Source of the DNA: Opitutales bacterium
GTDB taxonomy: Bacteria > Verrucomicrobiota > Verrucomicrobiia > Opitutales > UBA953
NCBI GenBank assembly: GCA_024697185.1
Contig: JAILGB010000011.1
Coordinates: 1 to 64,000, forward strand
Length of the DNA stretch: 64,000 bases
Direction: 5' to 3'
The position numbers and the translations under genes were made by a program. This document shows positions 57,078 to 64,000 of this stretch, piece after piece; the first letter of the stretch is position 1; the number at the start of each line of letters is the position of its first letter. The notes below the pieces were generated by a model, which saw nothing but the letters and a program-made list of their open reading frames with translations, was not told the DNA's origin and made no database searches.

Positions 57078-58445
57078 TTACTGTTTCTTAGCCTTGCGCT
57101 TCGCCGTCTTGGCGAGCTCCGCGTTTTCACGGATCTTCCTGCCGACCGTCTTACGCGTCACGCCCAGCAGCTTGGCAGCCTTCGACTGATTGCCGTGCGC
57201 CTCTATCAAAGCCTTGCGGATAAGTTTAGTTTCCTGATGACGTTTTGACAACTTTGTTTTGCCCGCCTCAAAACGCTCGTCCAAATCCAAAACCGTAATC
57301 TCACCGCTCCCGCTGTGCATCACGACGATATTCTCGCAAAAGTTGCGCAACTCGCGAATATTGCCCGGCCAATCATACGCACAGATCAAATCCATCGCCT
57401 CCTGCGAAATCTGCGGACGCGTCAAAGCGTTTTCCTTCGCAAACAACGAAACATAATGCTCCACCAAAAGCGCGACATCCTCACGGCGTTCCCGCAACGA
57501 CGGCAAATGCAAAGTCACCACCGAAAGCCGATAATACAAATCCTCCCGGAACGTTCCCGCGCGCACCATCGCCTGCAAATCACGATTGGTCGCACAAACC
57601 AAACGGACATCCAAATGAATCGGAGATGTCGAACCCAAACGCTCAATCGTATGCGTCTCCAAAAAACGCAAAAGCTTCACCTGCGTTGACAAATCAATCT
57701 CGCCGATCTCATCCAAAAAAAGCGTTCCCGAATTGGCAGCCTCAAACTTGCCGACACGACGCTCCGTCGCTCCCGTAAACGCACCTTTCTCATGGCCAAA
57801 AACCTCACTCTCCAACAACGACGGAGCAATCGCCGCACAATGAACCGCAACAAACGGCTTCTTCGCACGAGGCGACGACTGATGGATCAACTGCGCAAAC
57901 AATTCCTTGCCCGTTCCCGTCTCGCCCAAAAGCAAAACACTCGTCTTCGCCTGCGCAACACGCTGAGCCTTCTCAACCGCAGATTTGAGCGCCGCACTCT
58001 CCCCGATCAGCTTCGAAAAATTAAAGGTCTGATTCAGCCGCTCCGACATCGCCTTGTTCTCACGCTCCGTCTCACGCTGGGACAACGCACGCGCAATCAC
58101 CAACGACAACTTCTCAACATTGATCGGCTTTTGCAAAAAATCATAAGCGCCGCGACGCATCGCCTCAACAGCCGTCTCAACATCACCATAAGCCGTCATC
58201 ATGATGCAAACAGGACGGGACGGCAACGACAAGGCAAAATCAATAACCGACAAACCAGACCGGCCCGCCATCTTCAAATCCGTCACAACAACATCAACAT
58301 GACGGTTGCGATCACCCAAAATCCGCTCAGCCTCATCCGCATTCGATGCCGTAAAAACCTCATAGTCATCCTCAAAAGTGTCCGCAAGACCCTCGCGAGT
58401 GTTCCGCTCATCATCAACAATCAATAAACACGCTTTCATAGCCAT
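57078..58445 (-). CDS. Sigma-54-dependent response regulator, NtrC family
   Basis: 455 residues. Receiver domain with the phosphoacceptor D56 in VVVTDLKM. The AAA+ domain has Walker A GETGTGKE, the sigma-54 contact GAFTGA in HEKGAFTGATE, LFLDEIGE as Walker B and WPGNIRELRN. A Fis-type helix-turn-helix (IRKALIEAHGNQSKAAKLLGVTRKTV) ends it. No histidine kinase is adjacent, and the gene downstream is a PstS-like protein. No -24/-12 sigma-54 promoter was recognised in the window, so its targets are unknown. Confidence 0.94.
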   Translation of the reverse strand: MAMKACLLIVDDERNTREGLADTFEDDYEVFTASNADEAERILGDRNRHVDVVVTDLKMAGRSGLSVIDFALSLPSRPVCIMMTAYGDVETAVEAMRRGAYDFLQKPINVEKLSLVIARALSQRETERENKAMSERLNQTFNFSKLIGESAALKSAVEKAQRVAQAKTSVLLLGETGTGKELFAQLIHQSSPRAKKPFVAVHCAAIAPSLLESEVFGHEKGAFTGATERRVGKFEAANSGTLFLDEIGEIDLSTQVKLLRFLETHTIERLGSTSPIHLDVRLVCATNRDLQAMVRAGTFREDLYYRLSVVTLHLPSLRERREDVALLVEHYVSLFAKENALTRPQISQEAMDLICAYDWPGNIRELRNFCENIVVMHSGSGEITVLDLDERFEAGKTKLSKRHQETKLIRKALIEAHGNQSKAAKLLGVTRKTVGRKIRENAELAKTAKRKAKKQ

Positions 58446-58512
58446 CTAAAATAATTTTGAGACTTTTTTTCCCATCCCGCAAGGAAAAATTGGATTCGCG
58501 GGAACGGCGGGG

Positions 58513-58735
58513 AAGATTAAGACACAAAGCTTTGTTCAGACTTGGCGGGAACAGAAATTTTAAATCCACAGATTTTAGGATTTAAAGTTTTTTTTGGCTT
58601 GGGGATTGCCCACCGCGGGAACGGGAACGGCGGGAACAAAAAATTCTTAAATCCTAAAATCTGTGGATCCTAAAAACATCCCGAGCCACGCCTCTGTGTC
58701 TCTGTGTTTAAATTTTTGTTCCCGTCGTTCCCGAA
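58513..58735. repeat. Repeat cassette A: W and H repeats in inverted order
   Basis: This stretch is between the NtrC gene and the first PEP-CTERM gene, with no gene. It holds a W repeat (AATCCTAAAATCTGTGGAT) at 58562-58584 on the minus strand and at 58648-58670 on the plus strand, forming a 22-bp inverted pair around a spacer of about 60 bases that contains several GGGAACG copies. An H repeat (CCTCTGTGTCTCTGTG) is at 58691-58713, and a degenerate reverse H at about 58515-58535. The block ends in CGTTCCCG copies. Confidence 0.85.
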
Positions 58736-58749
58736 AAGCAATCGGCGAA

Positions 58750-58795
58750 CAAAAAAAACGCGTTCCCGCAAAAATCCACGGGAACGCGATTTTTA
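58750..58795 (-). terminator. Terminator of PEP-CTERM gene 1, motif-paired
   Basis: CGCGTTCCCG (58759-58768) and CGGGAACGCG (58779-58788) form a perfect 10-bp stem, with A8 on the plus strand side giving the U-run, 12 bases after the stop codon. Confidence 0.85.
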
Positions 58796-58806
58796 TCTCG
58801 CCAAAA

Positions 58807-59640
58807 TTAGCGGGAACGACGACGGCGAGCACCGACAAGCGCCAACGCGCCCAAGCCTGCCAACAAACCAAACATCGAAGGTTCCGGAACGGTCGAAATT
58901 GCAATGCCGGCAAACCAAGGCTTTTGCGTTGCATTAAACACCACCTTGCCTTCTGCATCAGCCGTGATGAGAGCGTTTGCGAGGAAATATTTGTGACTCG
59001 AACCTGTTGTAGCAAGATTTGATGCCGCTATGATAGAATTCACTTCTCCCGCATCTGTCACATTTGCGTAAAAATTGTAATTGGCAAAATCAACCTCTGT
59101 CATCACACCGGATCCGTCCGTCGCCTTAACATCTGCGGCCGAGGTAACCAATGTTCCTGTTGTCGCGGAAAGAACCGAGGAAGCGCTATCGCCCTCGAAC
59201 AAGAAGGAGAATGCATAAGTTTTGTTTGCGGCGAGATTGGAAAATGTAAGCGTCGCAGGTTGACCGCCTGCGCCATTGCCATAAGCATACGGTTTTCCAC
59301 TTTTAAGTTCAAGACCTGTGGCTGTCATCAACTGTTCAGACACGGCTTCTGCCGCAGCAACTGTATAGGTTTGGCCTTGGGCTTCTTTGTCCTGTATCCA
59401 AAATTTCCCAGTCGGAATTGTAATTGTCAAATTAACGGGAGTCGTTTCATTAAGAATTGTCTGAGCGTCAAAAGATTTGGGCGAACCACCTGTCAAATTG
59501 AGATCTACAACCTCATCCGCGCCACTGACAAATCCTCCATTCGAAGCGACTTGCCACACGATTGTTGTCTGTGCGTCGGCGAAAATTGCCGCTGTCGCGA
59601 GAACACCGGCTGCCAAGGAGATTGTTTTTAAGGTATTCAT
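58807..59640 (-). CDS. PEP-CTERM sorted secreted protein, copy 1
   Basis: 277 residues. A signal peptide (about 1-23, ending DAQ) precedes a Ser/Thr/Ala-rich beta domain with no known fold. The C-terminus carries VPEPSMFGLLAGLGALALV followed by ARRRRSR, the PEP-CTERM signal for exosortase cleavage and surface attachment. The exosortase is not in the window. N-terminal MNTLKTISLAAGVLATAA and the tail are nearly identical to the next gene upstream, so the two are tandem duplicates with diverged middles. Function is unknown; such proteins coat or secrete polysaccharide-linked surfaces. Confidence 0.88.
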   Translation of the reverse strand: MNTLKTISLAAGVLATAAIFADAQTTIVWQVASNGGFVSGADEVVDLNLTGGSPKSFDAQTILNETTPVNLTITIPTGKFWIQDKEAQGQTYTVAAAEAVSEQLMTATGLELKSGKPYAYGNGAGGQPATLTFSNLAANKTYAFSFLFEGDSASSVLSATTGTLVTSAADVKATDGSGVMTEVDFANYNFYANVTDAGEVNSIIAASNLATTGSSHKYFLANALITADAEGKVVFNATQKPWFAGIAISTVPEPSMFGLLAGLGALALVGARRRRSR

Positions 59641-59672
59641 AGGATTAAGGATTTTGAGTTTAGACTACTTTA

Positions 59673-59700
59673 ATTCTAACATCGAAAAAAAAAAACGCAA
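59673..59700 (-). promoter_or_regulatory. Putative promoter of PEP-CTERM gene 1 with an A11 tract in the spacer
   Basis: On the minus strand TTGCGT (59695-59700) and TAGAAT (59673-59678), with a 16-base spacer that contains most of an 11-base homopolymer (59685-59695). It matches the second PEP-CTERM promoter except for the tract length. Confidence 0.45.
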
Positions 59701-59777
59701 GTATTTTTTTATAAAAATTTACATATTTTTAAGTTTTCGTTTTTCGGGAACGGTGATAATAATAAAAGCGCGCTTTT

Positions 59778-59930
59778 TATTTTTTAACACAGGGCACAAA
59801 ATTACAGAAACAGACTGCGGGAACGGGAATTTTAAATCCTAAAATCTGTGGATCATAAAAAACAACCGGCAGCACGACTTTGTGTCTTTGTGCCTCTGTG
59901 TTTAAATTTTTGTTCCCGCCGTTCCCGCAA
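59778..59930. repeat. Repeat cassette B, between the PEP-CTERM genes
   Basis: A reverse H (TTAACACAGGGCACAAA) at 59783-59799, a W copy at 59832-59854 on the plus strand and an H copy at 59879-59911, then CGTTCCCG copies. The order is H reverse, W, H. The DNA from here to the next gene also matches the corresponding area after gene 1. There is no gene in 59641-60001. Confidence 0.8.
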
Positions 59931-59943
59931 AGCCAATCTGTAA

Positions 59944-59990
59944 ACAAAAAAACGCGTTCCCGCGAGGATCCACGGGAACGCGATTTTTTA
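59944..59990 (-). terminator. Terminator of PEP-CTERM gene 2, motif-paired
   Basis: CGCGTTCCCG (59953-59962) and CGGGAACGCG (59973-59982) form a perfect 10-bp stem, with A7 on one side and T6 on the other; it is nearly identical to the terminator of gene 1. Confidence 0.85.
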
Positions 59991-60001
59991 TCTCGCCAAA
60001 A

Positions 60002-60841
60002 TTAGCGGGAACGACGACGGCGAGCGCCGACGAGCGCCAAAGCGCCCAAGCCAGCCAACAAACCGAACATCGAAGGTTCCGGAACAGTCGAGAGACCGAC
60101 CGCCCAGAGCAAACCTTTGTTCGTCGTCTGAAGAGCAACCTGACCATTTGCATCCGCCGTGACAAGCATATTCACGAGCATTGCGTGATTTGTATTCGTT
60201 GACATGATAGGGCTTGATGTTGAGATTGCCTGAAGAGCCCCACCGCTCGTCAAATCTGCCATATAGTTGTAATTGGCAAAATCTTTTTCCGTCATCACGC
60301 CTGTCCCGTCTGTCGCGTTGACATCCGCAGCCGTCGCAGCCACCGAGCCTTTTGTTAAATTAAGTCGCGATGTCGTGCCATTACTAAATTCACTAAAAAT
60401 AACTGTAAAAGCATAGGTCTTTGAAGCCTCGAGATTTGAGAACGTCAATGTCATAGTTGTCTGCGCTTGACCACCGCCATAAATATTGTTCACATTGGTT
60501 CCCGAAGAAATATCAAGCCCCGTTCCCGCCAAAAGTTTTTCCGCCACTTCATCATTAACCAAAAGAGTTTTCGACGGATTATTCGCAAACCAAGTAGCGC
60601 CCGTATCAATAGCATAAGCCATTGAAACCGGACTTGCGCTGCTGAGAATCGTCGAAGCGTCAAACGTATAGTTTCTTCCTCCTGTCGAACCGATTGTAAC
60701 AATTTCATCCGCCCCGCAGTCACTGCTAAAAACATTATTACCTGCCGTCAACTGCCAGAGGATCGTTGTTTGTGCGTTAGCGAAACTTGCCGCTGTCGCA
60801 AGAACACCGGCTGCCAAGGAGATTGTTTTTAAGGTATTCAT
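60002..60841 (-). CDS. PEP-CTERM sorted secreted protein, copy 2
   Basis: 279 residues from the ATG at 60841. A signal peptide (ending NAQ) precedes a Thr/Ser/Asn-rich domain, VTIGSTGGRNYTFDAS and TMTLTFSNLEASKTYAFTV among it. The C-terminus has STVPEPSMFGLLAGLGALA and RRRRSR, identical to copy 1 in the last part. The central 200 residues resemble copy 1 in layout (strand-rich, ASKTYAF, KDFANYN) but share few residues outside short blocks. They are probably surface proteins with the same anchor and different exposed parts. Confidence 0.88.
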   Translation of the reverse strand: MNTLKTISLAAGVLATAASFANAQTTILWQLTAGNNVFSSDCGADEIVTIGSTGGRNYTFDASTILSSASPVSMAYAIDTGATWFANNPSKTLLVNDEVAEKLLAGTGLDISSGTNVNNIYGGGQAQTTMTLTFSNLEASKTYAFTVIFSEFSNGTTSRLNLTKGSVAATAADVNATDGTGVMTEKDFANYNYMADLTSGGALQAISTSSPIMSTNTNHAMLVNMLVTADANGQVALQTTNKGLLWAVGLSTVPEPSMFGLLAGLGALALVGARRRRSR

Positions 60842-60873
60842 AGGATTGGATAATTTAATTGTTATTTTTTTTA

Positions 60874-60903
60874 ATTTTAACATCTAAAAAAAAAAAAACG
60901 CAA
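60874..60903 (-). promoter_or_regulatory. Putative promoter of PEP-CTERM gene 2 with an A13 tract in the spacer
   Basis: On the minus strand TTGCGT (60898-60903) and TAAAAT (60874-60879, 5 of 6), with an 18-base spacer that contains most of a 13-base homopolymer (60886-60898). The same elements with an 11-base tract and a spacing of 16 lie before gene 1. Confidence 0.45.
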
Positions 60904-60956
60904 GTATTTTTTATAAAAATTTTACACATTTTTAAGGTTTCATTTTTCGGGAACGA

Positions 60957-61260
60957 GAATTTTAAATCCACAGAATTTAGGATTTAAGAATTTTTATTTG
61001 AGACTCGCACGCCGCGGGAACGGGAACGCGGGAACGCGGGCTTTATTTTTTTAACACAGAGACGCAAAGGCACAAAGATTTTTTAGGGTTTGCCACGCTC
61101 CCCAAAAAGCAAAACCGCGTTCCCGCAAACGCCGTTCCCGCCAAACCAAAACAAAAAATTTTTAAATCCTAAAATCTGTGGATCCTATAAAAAATCCCGA
61201 GCCACGCCTTTATGTCTCTGTGTTAAAATTCCGTTCCCGTTCCCGCATTTCCGCCGTTCC
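60957..61260. repeat. Repeat cassette C, between nifJ and PEP-CTERM gene 2
   Basis: No gene lies in 60842-61328. The stretch holds W reverse (60963-60987, one mismatch), H reverse (61051-61077), W forward (61162-61184) and H forward (61207-61225), then several CGTTCCCG copies; ATCCCGAGCCACGCC at about 61195-61208 is also seen in cassette A. GGGAACGGGAACG arrays lie around 61015-61035. Order and orientation are W reverse, H reverse, W, H, a mirrored composite. Confidence 0.8.
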
Positions 61261-61264
61261 CGCC

Positions 61265-61316
61265 GGCGGACAAAAAAATCGCCCGCGGTGTTCCCGCGAG
61301 CGACTTTGATTTTTTT
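61265..61316 (-). terminator. Terminator of nifJ
   Basis: TCGCCCGCGG and CCGCGAGCGA pair with one mismatch around a loop containing GTTC, and the minus strand continues with TTTTTTT. A motif half is inside the loop/stem. It lies just after the nifJ stop. Confidence 0.65.
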
Positions 61317-61328
61317 GCCTAATCCCGT

Positions 61329-64000
61329 TTATTTGTTTTCGGGGCTTTCCGGCTTGTAGGCTTCCTTACAGGCCTGGTAGTAATGGAAGCGGTTGTTGAC
61401 CATATCTTGTGCCTTGGCGTAGAGTTCGGCGGCGTGTTCGGGGTTTGCTCTTTGGAGTCCCTTGAAACGCGTTTCGAGGCTCATGAGGTCCATCAACGGT
61501 GTTTTTGGAGCCGGGCAGTCGAGCGTGAACGGATTTTTGCCTGCGGCGATATTTGCCGGGTTGTATCGGAAGATCGGCCAATATCCGGACTCGACAGCCA
61601 TCTTTTGGTGCATCGGTCCGTCGGCGAGGTTTTTGTATCCGTGCGCGATGCAGTGTGCGTAGCAGATGATGATTGCGGGTCCGTCGTAGGCTTCCGCTTC
61701 TTTCATTGCCTGCACGACTTGGGTGTCCTTGTAGCCGAGGGAGACTCTTGCGACATAGGCGTTGCCGTATTGGACGGCGATTTGCGCGAGGTCTTTCTTC
61801 GGCATTTTTTTGCCGGAGGCTGCAAACTTTGCGACGGCGCCGATAGAGGTCGATTTTGACATCTGTCCGCCGGTGTTCGAATAGACTTCGGTGTCGAGGA
61901 CGAGGACTTTGATGTTTTTGCCGGAAGCGATCGCGTGATCGAGTCCTCCGTATCCGATATCATAAGCCCAGCCATCGCCGCCGACGATCCAGACATTCTT
62001 TTTGACCAGGTAGTCCGCCAGGATGAGGAGTCGGCTGCAAACCGGACAGTCGGGCGAAAGCTTGGTCTTGAGTTCGGCGACGCGGGCGCGTTGTGCGGCG
62101 ATTTCGGCGTCGTTGGTCTGGGGGGATTCGAGAATTGCTTTTGCGAGTTCTTCCGGCACCTTGCCCTCTTCGACCATTTCCTTGAGGAACTGTGTCGCCA
62201 TTTCCGCCTTTTTGTCGATAGCGTAGCGCATACCGAGTCCGAACTCTGCGTTGTCTTCGAAGAGCGAGTTTGCCCAAGCGGGTCCGCGGCCGTTTTCATC
62301 GACGGCGTAGGGTGTCGTCGGGAGATTGCCGCCGTAGATGGACGAGCAGCCTGTCGCGTTGGCGATGTAGGCGCGGTCGCCGAAGAGTTGCGTCATCAGC
62401 TTGATGTAGGGTGTTTCACCGCAAGCGGCGCAGGCTCCCGAAAACTCGATGAGCGGTTGGCGGAACTGCGAGTCCTTGACCGTATCGCCGAGCACGGTGC
62501 GGTCGGGATTGGGGAGTTTGAGGAAGAATTCCCAGTTGTCGCGTTCGGCGTCGTGCAAGGGCTTTTGCGGCGCCATTGTGAGGGCGCGCTTTTCTTCCTT
62601 GGTCGGACATGCGATCACGCAAACGCCGCAACCAGTGCAGTCTTCGGGCGCGACTTGGATCGTGAAGAGGTTGCCGGGGAGCTTGGGAGCTTTGAACGGC
62701 ACGCTCTTGAAGGTCGCGGGAGCGTCGGCGACGAGGTTTTGCGGATAGAACTTTGCCCGGATGGCGGCGTGCGGACAGATGGTCACGCACTTGTTGCACT
62801 GAATACAGTTTTCAGAATTCCAAACCGGGATGCGGTCCGCGAGATTGCGTTTTTCATATTGCGTTGTCGCACTCGGGAAGCAGCCGTCCACGGGCATTGC
62901 CGAGGTCGGGATGAGGTCGCCCTTGTTGGCGATCATCATTGCCTGGACTTTTTTGAAAAATTCCGGAGCGCCGTCGTATGTCGGGACCTGAATCGGCTTT
63001 GCGTCCGCATCGGCTGTCGCGGGAACGCTGATTTCGTGGAGGTTGACCAGTGAGTTGTCAACAGCCTTGAAATTCATCTGCACGACATCGTCGCCTTTTT
63101 TGGCGTAGGTCTTCTGGATCGACTTTTTGATCTGCGCGATGGCTTCGTCGCGCGGCAGGACGCCGGCGAGAGCGAAGAAGCAAGCCTGCAAGACGGTGTT
63201 GGTGCGTCCGCGCATACCGGAATCGGCGGCGACTTTGGAAGCGTCAATCACATAGACATGCAGTTGTTTTGCGATGATTTCCTCCTGCCATTCCCGCGGG
63301 AACCGTTTCCAGGTCTCTTCCGGAGAGAAGGGCGAGTTGAGCAAAACGGTGGCTCCGTCCATCGCATAATCGAGCACCGGCTGGCGTCCGATATAGGCAT
63401 ATTGCGAGCAGGCGACAAAATTCGCTTTTTGGATGATATAGGCGGAGCGGATCGGCTTGGGGCCGAAGCGCAGGTGCGAGACGGTCGAGCCGCCGGACTT
63501 TTTGGAGTCATAGACGAAATAGCCCTGTGCGTAGTTGGGGGTGTTTTCGCCGATGATCTTGATCGAGTTTTTGTTGGCGCCGACGGTGCCGTCAGCTCCC
63601 AAACCGACGAAGACGGCGCGCGTCACCTCGTCGGACTCGACACTGAAGCGGTTGTCCCATTCGAGCGACATGTTTGTCAAGTCGTCGATGATGCCGATCG
63701 TAAAGCGTTTTTTGGGGGCTTCTTTGGCGAGTTCGTCGTAAATCGCCTTGACCATGCCGGGATTAAACTCTTTGGAGCCGATACCGTAGCGTCCGCCGAT
63801 GAGGGTCGGGAGTGCCTTGCCGGACTCGACAAATGCAGCCATAACCGACAGGAGCAAAGGCTCGCCGATCGAGCCGGGCTCTTTGGTGCGGTCGAGCACT
63901 GCGATCTTCTTGGCGGTCGCGGGAACGGCATTCAGGAACGCCGCCGCATCAAACGGCAGGAAAAGACGCACCTTGACCAAGCCAAGCTTTTCGCCCTTGG
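61329..64000 (-). CDS. nifJ: Pyruvate:ferredoxin (flavodoxin) oxidoreductase, 5' end cut by window edge
   Basis: Oxidises pyruvate to acetyl-CoA and CO2 with ferredoxin; oxygen-sensitive, so an anaerobic lifestyle is implied. The visible 890 residues lack about the first 300 of the roughly 1190-residue single-chain enzyme; the frame continues past 64000 (preceding residues GEKLGL). Domain order matches PFOR: the transketolase-like domain II, LIGGRYGIGSKEFNP, then the gamma domain (FVACSQYAYIGRQP), two 4Fe-4S motifs (CIQCNKCVTICPH; CTGCGVCVIACP) and the TPP-binding part (GDGWAYDIGYGGLDH). Few iterated motif copies are found here. Confidence 0.95.
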   Translation of the reverse strand, partial: KGEKLGLVKVRLFLPFDAAAFLNAVPATAKKIAVLDRTKEPGSIGEPLLLSVMAAFVESGKALPTLIGGRYGIGSKEFNPGMVKAIYDELAKEAPKKRFTIGIIDDLTNMSLEWDNRFSVESDEVTRAVFVGLGADGTVGANKNSIKIIGENTPNYAQGYFVYDSKKSGGSTVSHLRFGPKPIRSAYIIQKANFVACSQYAYIGRQPVLDYAMDGATVLLNSPFSPEETWKRFPREWQEEIIAKQLHVYVIDASKVAADSGMRGRTNTVLQACFFALAGVLPRDEAIAQIKKSIQKTYAKKGDDVVQMNFKAVDNSLVNLHEISVPATADADAKPIQVPTYDGAPEFFKKVQAMMIANKGDLIPTSAMPVDGCFPSATTQYEKRNLADRIPVWNSENCIQCNKCVTICPHAAIRAKFYPQNLVADAPATFKSVPFKAPKLPGNLFTIQVAPEDCTGCGVCVIACPTKEEKRALTMAPQKPLHDAERDNWEFFLKLPNPDRTVLGDTVKDSQFRQPLIEFSGACAACGETPYIKLMTQLFGDRAYIANATGCSSIYGGNLPTTPYAVDENGRGPAWANSLFEDNAEFGLGMRYAIDKKAEMATQFLKEMVEEGKVPEELAKAILESPQTNDAEIAAQRARVAELKTKLSPDCPVCSRLLILADYLVKKNVWIVGGDGWAYDIGYGGLDHAIASGKNIKVLVLDTEVYSNTGGQMSKSTSIGAVAKFAASGKKMPKKDLAQIAVQYGNAYVARVSLGYKDTQVVQAMKEAEAYDGPAIIICYAHCIAHGYKNLADGPMHQKMAVESGYWPIFRYNPANIAAGKNPFTLDCPAPKTPLMDLMSLETRFKGLQRANPEHAAELYAKAQDMVNNRFHYYQACKEAYKPESPENK

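Follow-up and report, generated by a model that had tools for sequence, protein, structure and literature searches.

Known phase-variable promoters and the present locus

Promoters controlled by slippage are best described in Proteobacteria, for example in Neisseria and Helicobacter, and the runs at the Neisseria promoters of porA, fetA and opc consist of poly-G or poly-C. In Neisseria meningitidis the unstable homopolymer of these surface protein promoters lies between the -35 and -10 elements (PMC2791445). In Helicobacter pylori, which is without mismatch repair, T/A runs of 9-16 bases were found at 25 promoters, in 9 of 25 cases between -35 and -10, and outer-membrane proteins were over-represented among the genes concerned (PMC4081817). 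Homopolymer phase variation in Verrucomicrobiota has been described for the G9 tract of Amuc_1413 in Akkermansia muciniphila (PMC13055324), and invertons place PEP-CTERM and autotransporter genes of Akkermansia under phase-variable promoter control (PMC11892184). A search of openly licensed papers turned up no account of slippage-controlled promoters for Verrucomicrobiota.

We analysed a stretch of 64 kb (hereafter the window), corresponding to bases 1-64000 of contig C18 in a 1.59 Mb assembly of 32 contigs. Judged from its sequence, the homopolymer tracts ahead of two PEP-CTERM genes in this window are probably contingency loci, belonging to a porA-type slippage phasome of about 15-24 promoters. 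The Neisseria promoters are single and unrelated and their switching has been proved, whereas here a single cassette with a poly-T or poly-A run recurs at many loci of a genome from a different phylum, and switching is predicted. At sabA of H. pylori the run is located upstream of -35 and acts via DNA axis alignment. The runs described here lie between -35 and -10, and the window promoters have no run upstream of and adjoining the -35, as a rheostat of the sabA type would have. In contrast to H. pylori, mutS is present. Amuc_1413 carries a coding poly-G tract that shifts the frame and was reported for that gene alone, unlike the promoter runs found here, and the Akkermansia invertons share gene class and phylum with the present case but work by inversion of DNA between repeats rather than by the slippage proposed here. 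Known phasevarions depend mostly on repeat variation within the coding sequence, while a type III methyltransferase gene of this genome (G000:C15) has the run in its promoter. The mechanism is already known; what looks new is the lineage, the scale and the fact that about two dozen loci share one cassette.

Promoters of two tandem PEP-CTERM genes

The closest named relatives of the genome were Opitutales MAGs from ruminant rectum and, more distantly, Candidatus Spyradosoma. A search with the pyruvate:ferredoxin oxidoreductase gene for another genome of this species returned only relatives, with at most 76% identity over the whole gene. Two paralogous PEP-CTERM genes are arranged in tandem on the minus strand of the window, with the following features:

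58807..59640, minus strand: PEP-CTERM gene 1, an ORF of 277 aa with signal peptide and C-terminal sorting domain (domain above cut-off)
59673..59678, minus strand: gene 1 -10 element TAGAAT, by sequence pattern
59685..59695, minus strand: gene 1 T11 run (A11 on the plus strand) within the promoter spacer; spacer 16
59695..59700, minus strand: gene 1 -35 element TTGCGT, its final T doubling as first T of the run
59701..59740, minus strand: gene 1 A/T-rich UP-like stretch upstream of -35
59953..59982, minus strand: strong terminator-like hairpin downstream of gene 2, between both genes
60002..60841, minus strand: PEP-CTERM gene 2, an ORF of 279 aa whose ATG at 60841 corresponds to the ATG of gene 1
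60874..60879, minus strand: gene 2 -10 element TAAAAT, by sequence pattern
60886..60898, minus strand: gene 2 T13 run (A13 on the plus strand) within the promoter spacer; spacer 18
60898..60903, minus strand: gene 2 -35 element TTGCGT, by sequence pattern
60904..60943, minus strand: gene 2 A/T-rich UP-like stretch upstream of -35

A longer ORF call of 293 aa for gene 2 has its start within the promoter. The two proteins each showed a C-terminal PEP motif, a hydrophobic helix and an Arg-rich tail, and the PEP-CTERM domain at their ends scored 23.6 bits in both against a Pfam cut-off of 20.7, in agreement with the initial annotation, which had taken them for a pair of surface proteins. Because of the hairpin between gene 2 and gene 1, gene 1 probably forms a unit of its own, and each gene is likely to be served by its own promoter. 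No RNA families were detected in region 58000-62000 of the window.

The promoter elements, the tracts of 11 and 13 bases and the spacings of 16 and 18 were found in the sequence as the initial annotation had described them. The cores of the two promoters are identical save for run length, one adjoining base and one base of the -10. Homopolymers of at least 10 bases, long enough to slip, occur in the window only as these T11 and T13 runs between -35 and -10; the next longest is one run of 9 (T runs on both strands: 67 of length 7, 22 of length 8 and 1 of length 9). A search for other sigma-70 promoters ahead of both genes gave one weak match on the same strand that was not above shuffles.

Recurrence of the promoter layout in the genome

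Searching the genome for TTGCGT-T9+-N2-14-TANNAT returned 13 matches against 0 for the reversed-pattern control, and TTGC-N0-8-T10-N2-10-TANNAT returned 15 matches against 0 for reversed controls, so that the layout is not explained by chance. The layout first noticed is real, but it is not confined to a pair: the set comprises about 15 loci by the strict pattern and about 24 by a looser one, where looser sites have a weaker -10 or a few bases separating the -35 from the run. Run length varied from 10 to 14 and spacer length from 15 to 19 among tract promoters within this one genome, and the 40 bp upstream of them had a mean AT content of 76% compared with 47% in the window. When runs of six or more T were allowed behind TTGCG, at least nine T were present in 10 of 11 matches, which indicates that the run is either long or absent. 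The exception lies inside a response regulator coding region of the window.

Genome-wide, 38 T runs of at least 10 bases were observed (our own grouping of the genome matches), whereas Markov models (orders 1-4) derived from the window predicted 79-278. The genome thus seems generally to avoid long runs, and their concentration in promoter spacers is unlikely to be drift. Some T9-T12 runs stand outside promoters, for example those on C16 and at C24:33413, which come after G+C-rich stems. We also considered an excess of T runs as an explanation and rejected it, as the opposite is true. Background statistics were drawn from 193 kb of the genome together with the genome-wide pattern searches.

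Genes located behind the tracts

Four PEP-CTERM proteins, two of them with LamG domains, are encoded behind the 15 strict sites, along with an autotransporter-like PATR protein, two further secreted proteins and two small outer-membrane barrels. Restriction-modification functions at these sites comprise a GmrSD enzyme, type III and D12 methyltransferases and an AAA/McrB-like restriction protein. The remainder are a small zinc-ribbon membrane protein (C2) and a 181-aa protein without assignment (C5); the labels barrel and zinc-ribbon derive from weak matches under the Pfam cut-off plus sequence appearance. Looser sites added MBOAT and Acyl_transf_3 acyltransferases, EcoRI-type and C5 methyltransferases, a fused glycosyltransferase (GT2) and epimerase, a Mac-1-like protease that ends in PEP-CTERM, and a tandem of two genes with FGE-sulfatase domains. 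PEP-CTERM proteins, barrels, PATR, acyltransferases, the glycosyltransferase and restriction-modification systems have surface or contingency functions, and these gene classes are the usual phase-variable list. It speaks against this reading that a few of the genes behind tracts, those for the C2 zinc-ribbon and C5 181-aa proteins, show no evident contingency function. About 5 of the 11 PEP-CTERM matches in the genome are located behind tracts, so that a PEP-CTERM gene does not automatically come with one.

The promoters of the FGE-sulfatase tandem (G000:C14:19220 and 20583; L025 near 1521 and L249 near 1518) are copies of one tract promoter, with T10 in one and T9 plus an extra G in the other, and a total spacing of 15 in both. 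The type III methyltransferase gene on G000:C15 (L027 333-1562, minus strand) contains a frameshift at an A7 run, after which the conserved DFFAGSGTTG part resumes in a different frame. The frameshift may be an additional switch within the coding sequence, may mark a pseudogene or may stem from faulty assembly.

Spacer distribution

In 193 kb of the genome, ordinary TTGACA-like promoters peaked at a spacer of 17 (11 observed, about 1.9 expected in shuffles) and at 18, so the initial annotation was roughly right in naming 17 the commonest spacing, and its arithmetic that gain or loss of one base would bring either window promoter to 17 is correct. Homopolymer promoters with spacers of 15-19 from this genome and its congeners (n=27) were distributed over 15 (four), 16 (eight), 18 (seven) and 19 (eight), with 0 of 27 at 17. 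The gap at 17 gave a Fisher P value of 7e-5 in comparison with ordinary promoters and a chance of 0.0024 under a flat distribution, values which are rough because the tests were post hoc and promoters of paralogous families are not independent. Tract lengths that drift would produce such a broad scatter. As to the gap, the majority states captured in the assembly may lie off the optimum, or homopolymer DNA may have a different optimum. The complete absence of 17 counts against the slippage reading, being odd if 17 is the ON state and is at times selected.

Tract length differences

The window paralogues carry T11 and T13 on a near-identical core. Between congeners, the promoters on G003:C15 and G007:C3 are 96% identical over 205 bases and have T11 and T13, respectively, while the orthologous promoters on G003:C14 and G007:C9 both have T11. 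Overlapping contig ends of the assembly share exactly 141 bases, as in a de Bruijn graph with k=141, and the break between contigs C5 and C8 lies inside a tract, with the overlap starting exactly at T10 where C5 has T12. This is suggestive of mixed tract lengths in the population; homopolymer read errors could also cause it. The break of contig C22 also adjoins a T10 run, which is probably not part of a promoter. Same-species tract variants were sought in viral contigs, where the six matches obtained all came from phage contigs without apparent relation.

Distribution in the genus and family

Congeners yielded nine matches (in G003, G005 and G007) to TTGC-N0-8-T10-N2-10-TANNAT. The exact TTGCGT-T9 pattern was absent from them and the looser pattern was needed; the bases separating TTGC from the run differ in them. 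At the same position, A10-A12 runs were found in congeners G003, G004 and G005 (control 0); the poly-A pattern had one match in the own genome, probably unrelated. That T is replaced by A with the position kept suggests that the homopolymer in the spacer matters, and not a sequence-specific binding site. The poly-T design had 0 matches in 71 genomes of the family's other genera, and the poly-A design none in 30 searched genomes of other genera and families. Among the genomes searched, the spacer-homopolymer design is confined to the genus. Homologues of the two window promoters themselves were not found in congeners.

Most T runs in G003, G005 and G007 precede PEP-CTERM proteins or a family of proteins sharing a signal peptide (MKTSKFFFSTLIAASAMTATAYA). 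The mature parts of this family are dissimilar, and the A runs of the congeners precede it too; a Pfam search with one congener protein of the family gave no match. The 5' part, promoter plus signal peptide, looks in congener sequences as if it were a shared or recombining cassette. At congener loci L178, L181, L185, L186, L177, L253-L255 and L257-L259 we observed a conserved promoter and signal peptide with varied mature secreted proteins.

The genome has an intact mutS gene, and slippage rates thus need not be high. Loss of mismatch repair as a cause was rejected, judged by mutS, which is present in each of the eight genus genomes.

Dispersed repeats in the window

The GCGGGAACG/CGTTCCCGC motif occurs in 156 copies in 64 kb, where 0.6 would be expected given the base composition; CGGGAACG has 226 copies in the window. 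Both are found within and between genes, and some inverted pairs form terminators (e.g. 59953-59982). They are reminiscent of the DNA uptake sequences known from Neisseria and Haemophilus. Further dispersed repeats, ATCCACAGATTTTAGGATTTAA and another like ACACAGAGACGCAAAGGCAC, are intergenic and occur in either orientation:

60966-60995, 61154-61183, 59830-59860 and 58560-58595, both orientations: repeats of the ATCCACAGATTTTAGGATTTAA/ACACAGAGACGCAAAGGCAC type (also in L026 and L028)

Alternative explanations

The T run might be an invariant structural element of a strong promoter, with rigid B-prime or bent DNA and the A/T-rich upstream region giving constant high expression rather than switching. 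The UP-like 40 bp upstream with 76% AT and the one orthologous pair that keeps T11 are in line with this. We nevertheless regard it as unlikely, given that run lengths of 10-14 and spacers of 15-19 coexist in one genome, that 6-8 T behind TTGCG would be structurally just as good and are essentially absent, that A stands in place of T in congeners, and that the genes correspond to a contingency-locus list and not to highly expressed housekeeping genes. A regulon of surface and defence genes is also conceivable, in which TTGCG-T(n) would be bound by a shared regulator or an alternative sigma factor. TTGCG is indeed common to most sites of this genome and differs from TTGACA; yet the -10 is of the ordinary sigma-70 type, the spacing varies, the genes lack a common pathway, and what congeners conserve is the homopolymer and its position, with different bases between TTGC and run and poly-A allowed, all of which makes co-regulation of this kind very improbable.

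Invertible promoters are suggested by the shared phylum and gene class with the Akkermansia invertons (PMC11892184), and gene 2 has inverted repeats upstream (60966-60995 and 61154-61183). Both of these lie upstream of the -35, however, and do not enclose the promoter; their arms are copies of a sequence recurring elsewhere in the genome, the only pairs within 60856-60906 are the A/T runs themselves, and the gene 1 promoter has no flanking repeat pair. Lacking enclosing inverted repeats other than A/T runs, the window genes were rejected as candidates for inversion, which is extremely unlikely here. As homopolymers are prone to errors and the assembly derives from a metagenome, tract lengths could be sequencing or assembly noise on functionless runs. 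Noise is refuted for the position of the runs, as it would not put long runs into the -35/-10 spacer in 15 against 0 cases, nor across several genomes of the genus; exact lengths are uncertain by about one base, and the chance that the runs are noise altogether is close to nil. Control by slippage, which the initial annotation had proposed, is by comparison supported at the sequence level by the repeated cassette, the gene classes, tract length varying on conserved flanks, the occurrence of both poly-A and poly-T, and the spacer scatter.

Proposed mechanism and implications

Slipped-strand mispairing at replication would add or remove one base in the run between -35 and -10. The spacer of the sigma-70-type promoter would thereby change around its optimum in single-base steps, and as a polymerase of this type recognises a promoter well only near one spacing, 17 being the presumed ON length, transcription of the surface protein would go up or down in individual cells. 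Such a mechanism has been described for porA, fetA and opc of Neisseria (PMC2791445) and for part of the 25 H. pylori promoters that carry T or A runs (PMC4081817). Genes for PEP-CTERM proteins, barrels, autotransporter-like proteins, acyl- and glycosyltransferases and restriction-modification systems would vary independently of each other. A fuller reading, quite possible and offered here tentatively, is a genome-scale phasome in this genus of gut Opitutales, built from one cassette (A/T-rich upstream region, TTGC-type -35, homopolymer spacer and TANNAT) that may have spread to about two dozen surface and DNA-modification genes, with the population normally at off-optimum spacings and with congeners joining the same promoter and signal peptide to different mature surface proteins.

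The genome belongs to a bacterium of the gut whose phylum has been little studied. If the slippage reading is true, commensal Verrucomicrobiota would share the bet-hedging of mucosal pathogens, with about two dozen predicted switches in surface, envelope-modifying and restriction-modification functions, and this bet-hedging would perhaps be aimed at phages, host immunity or competitors.
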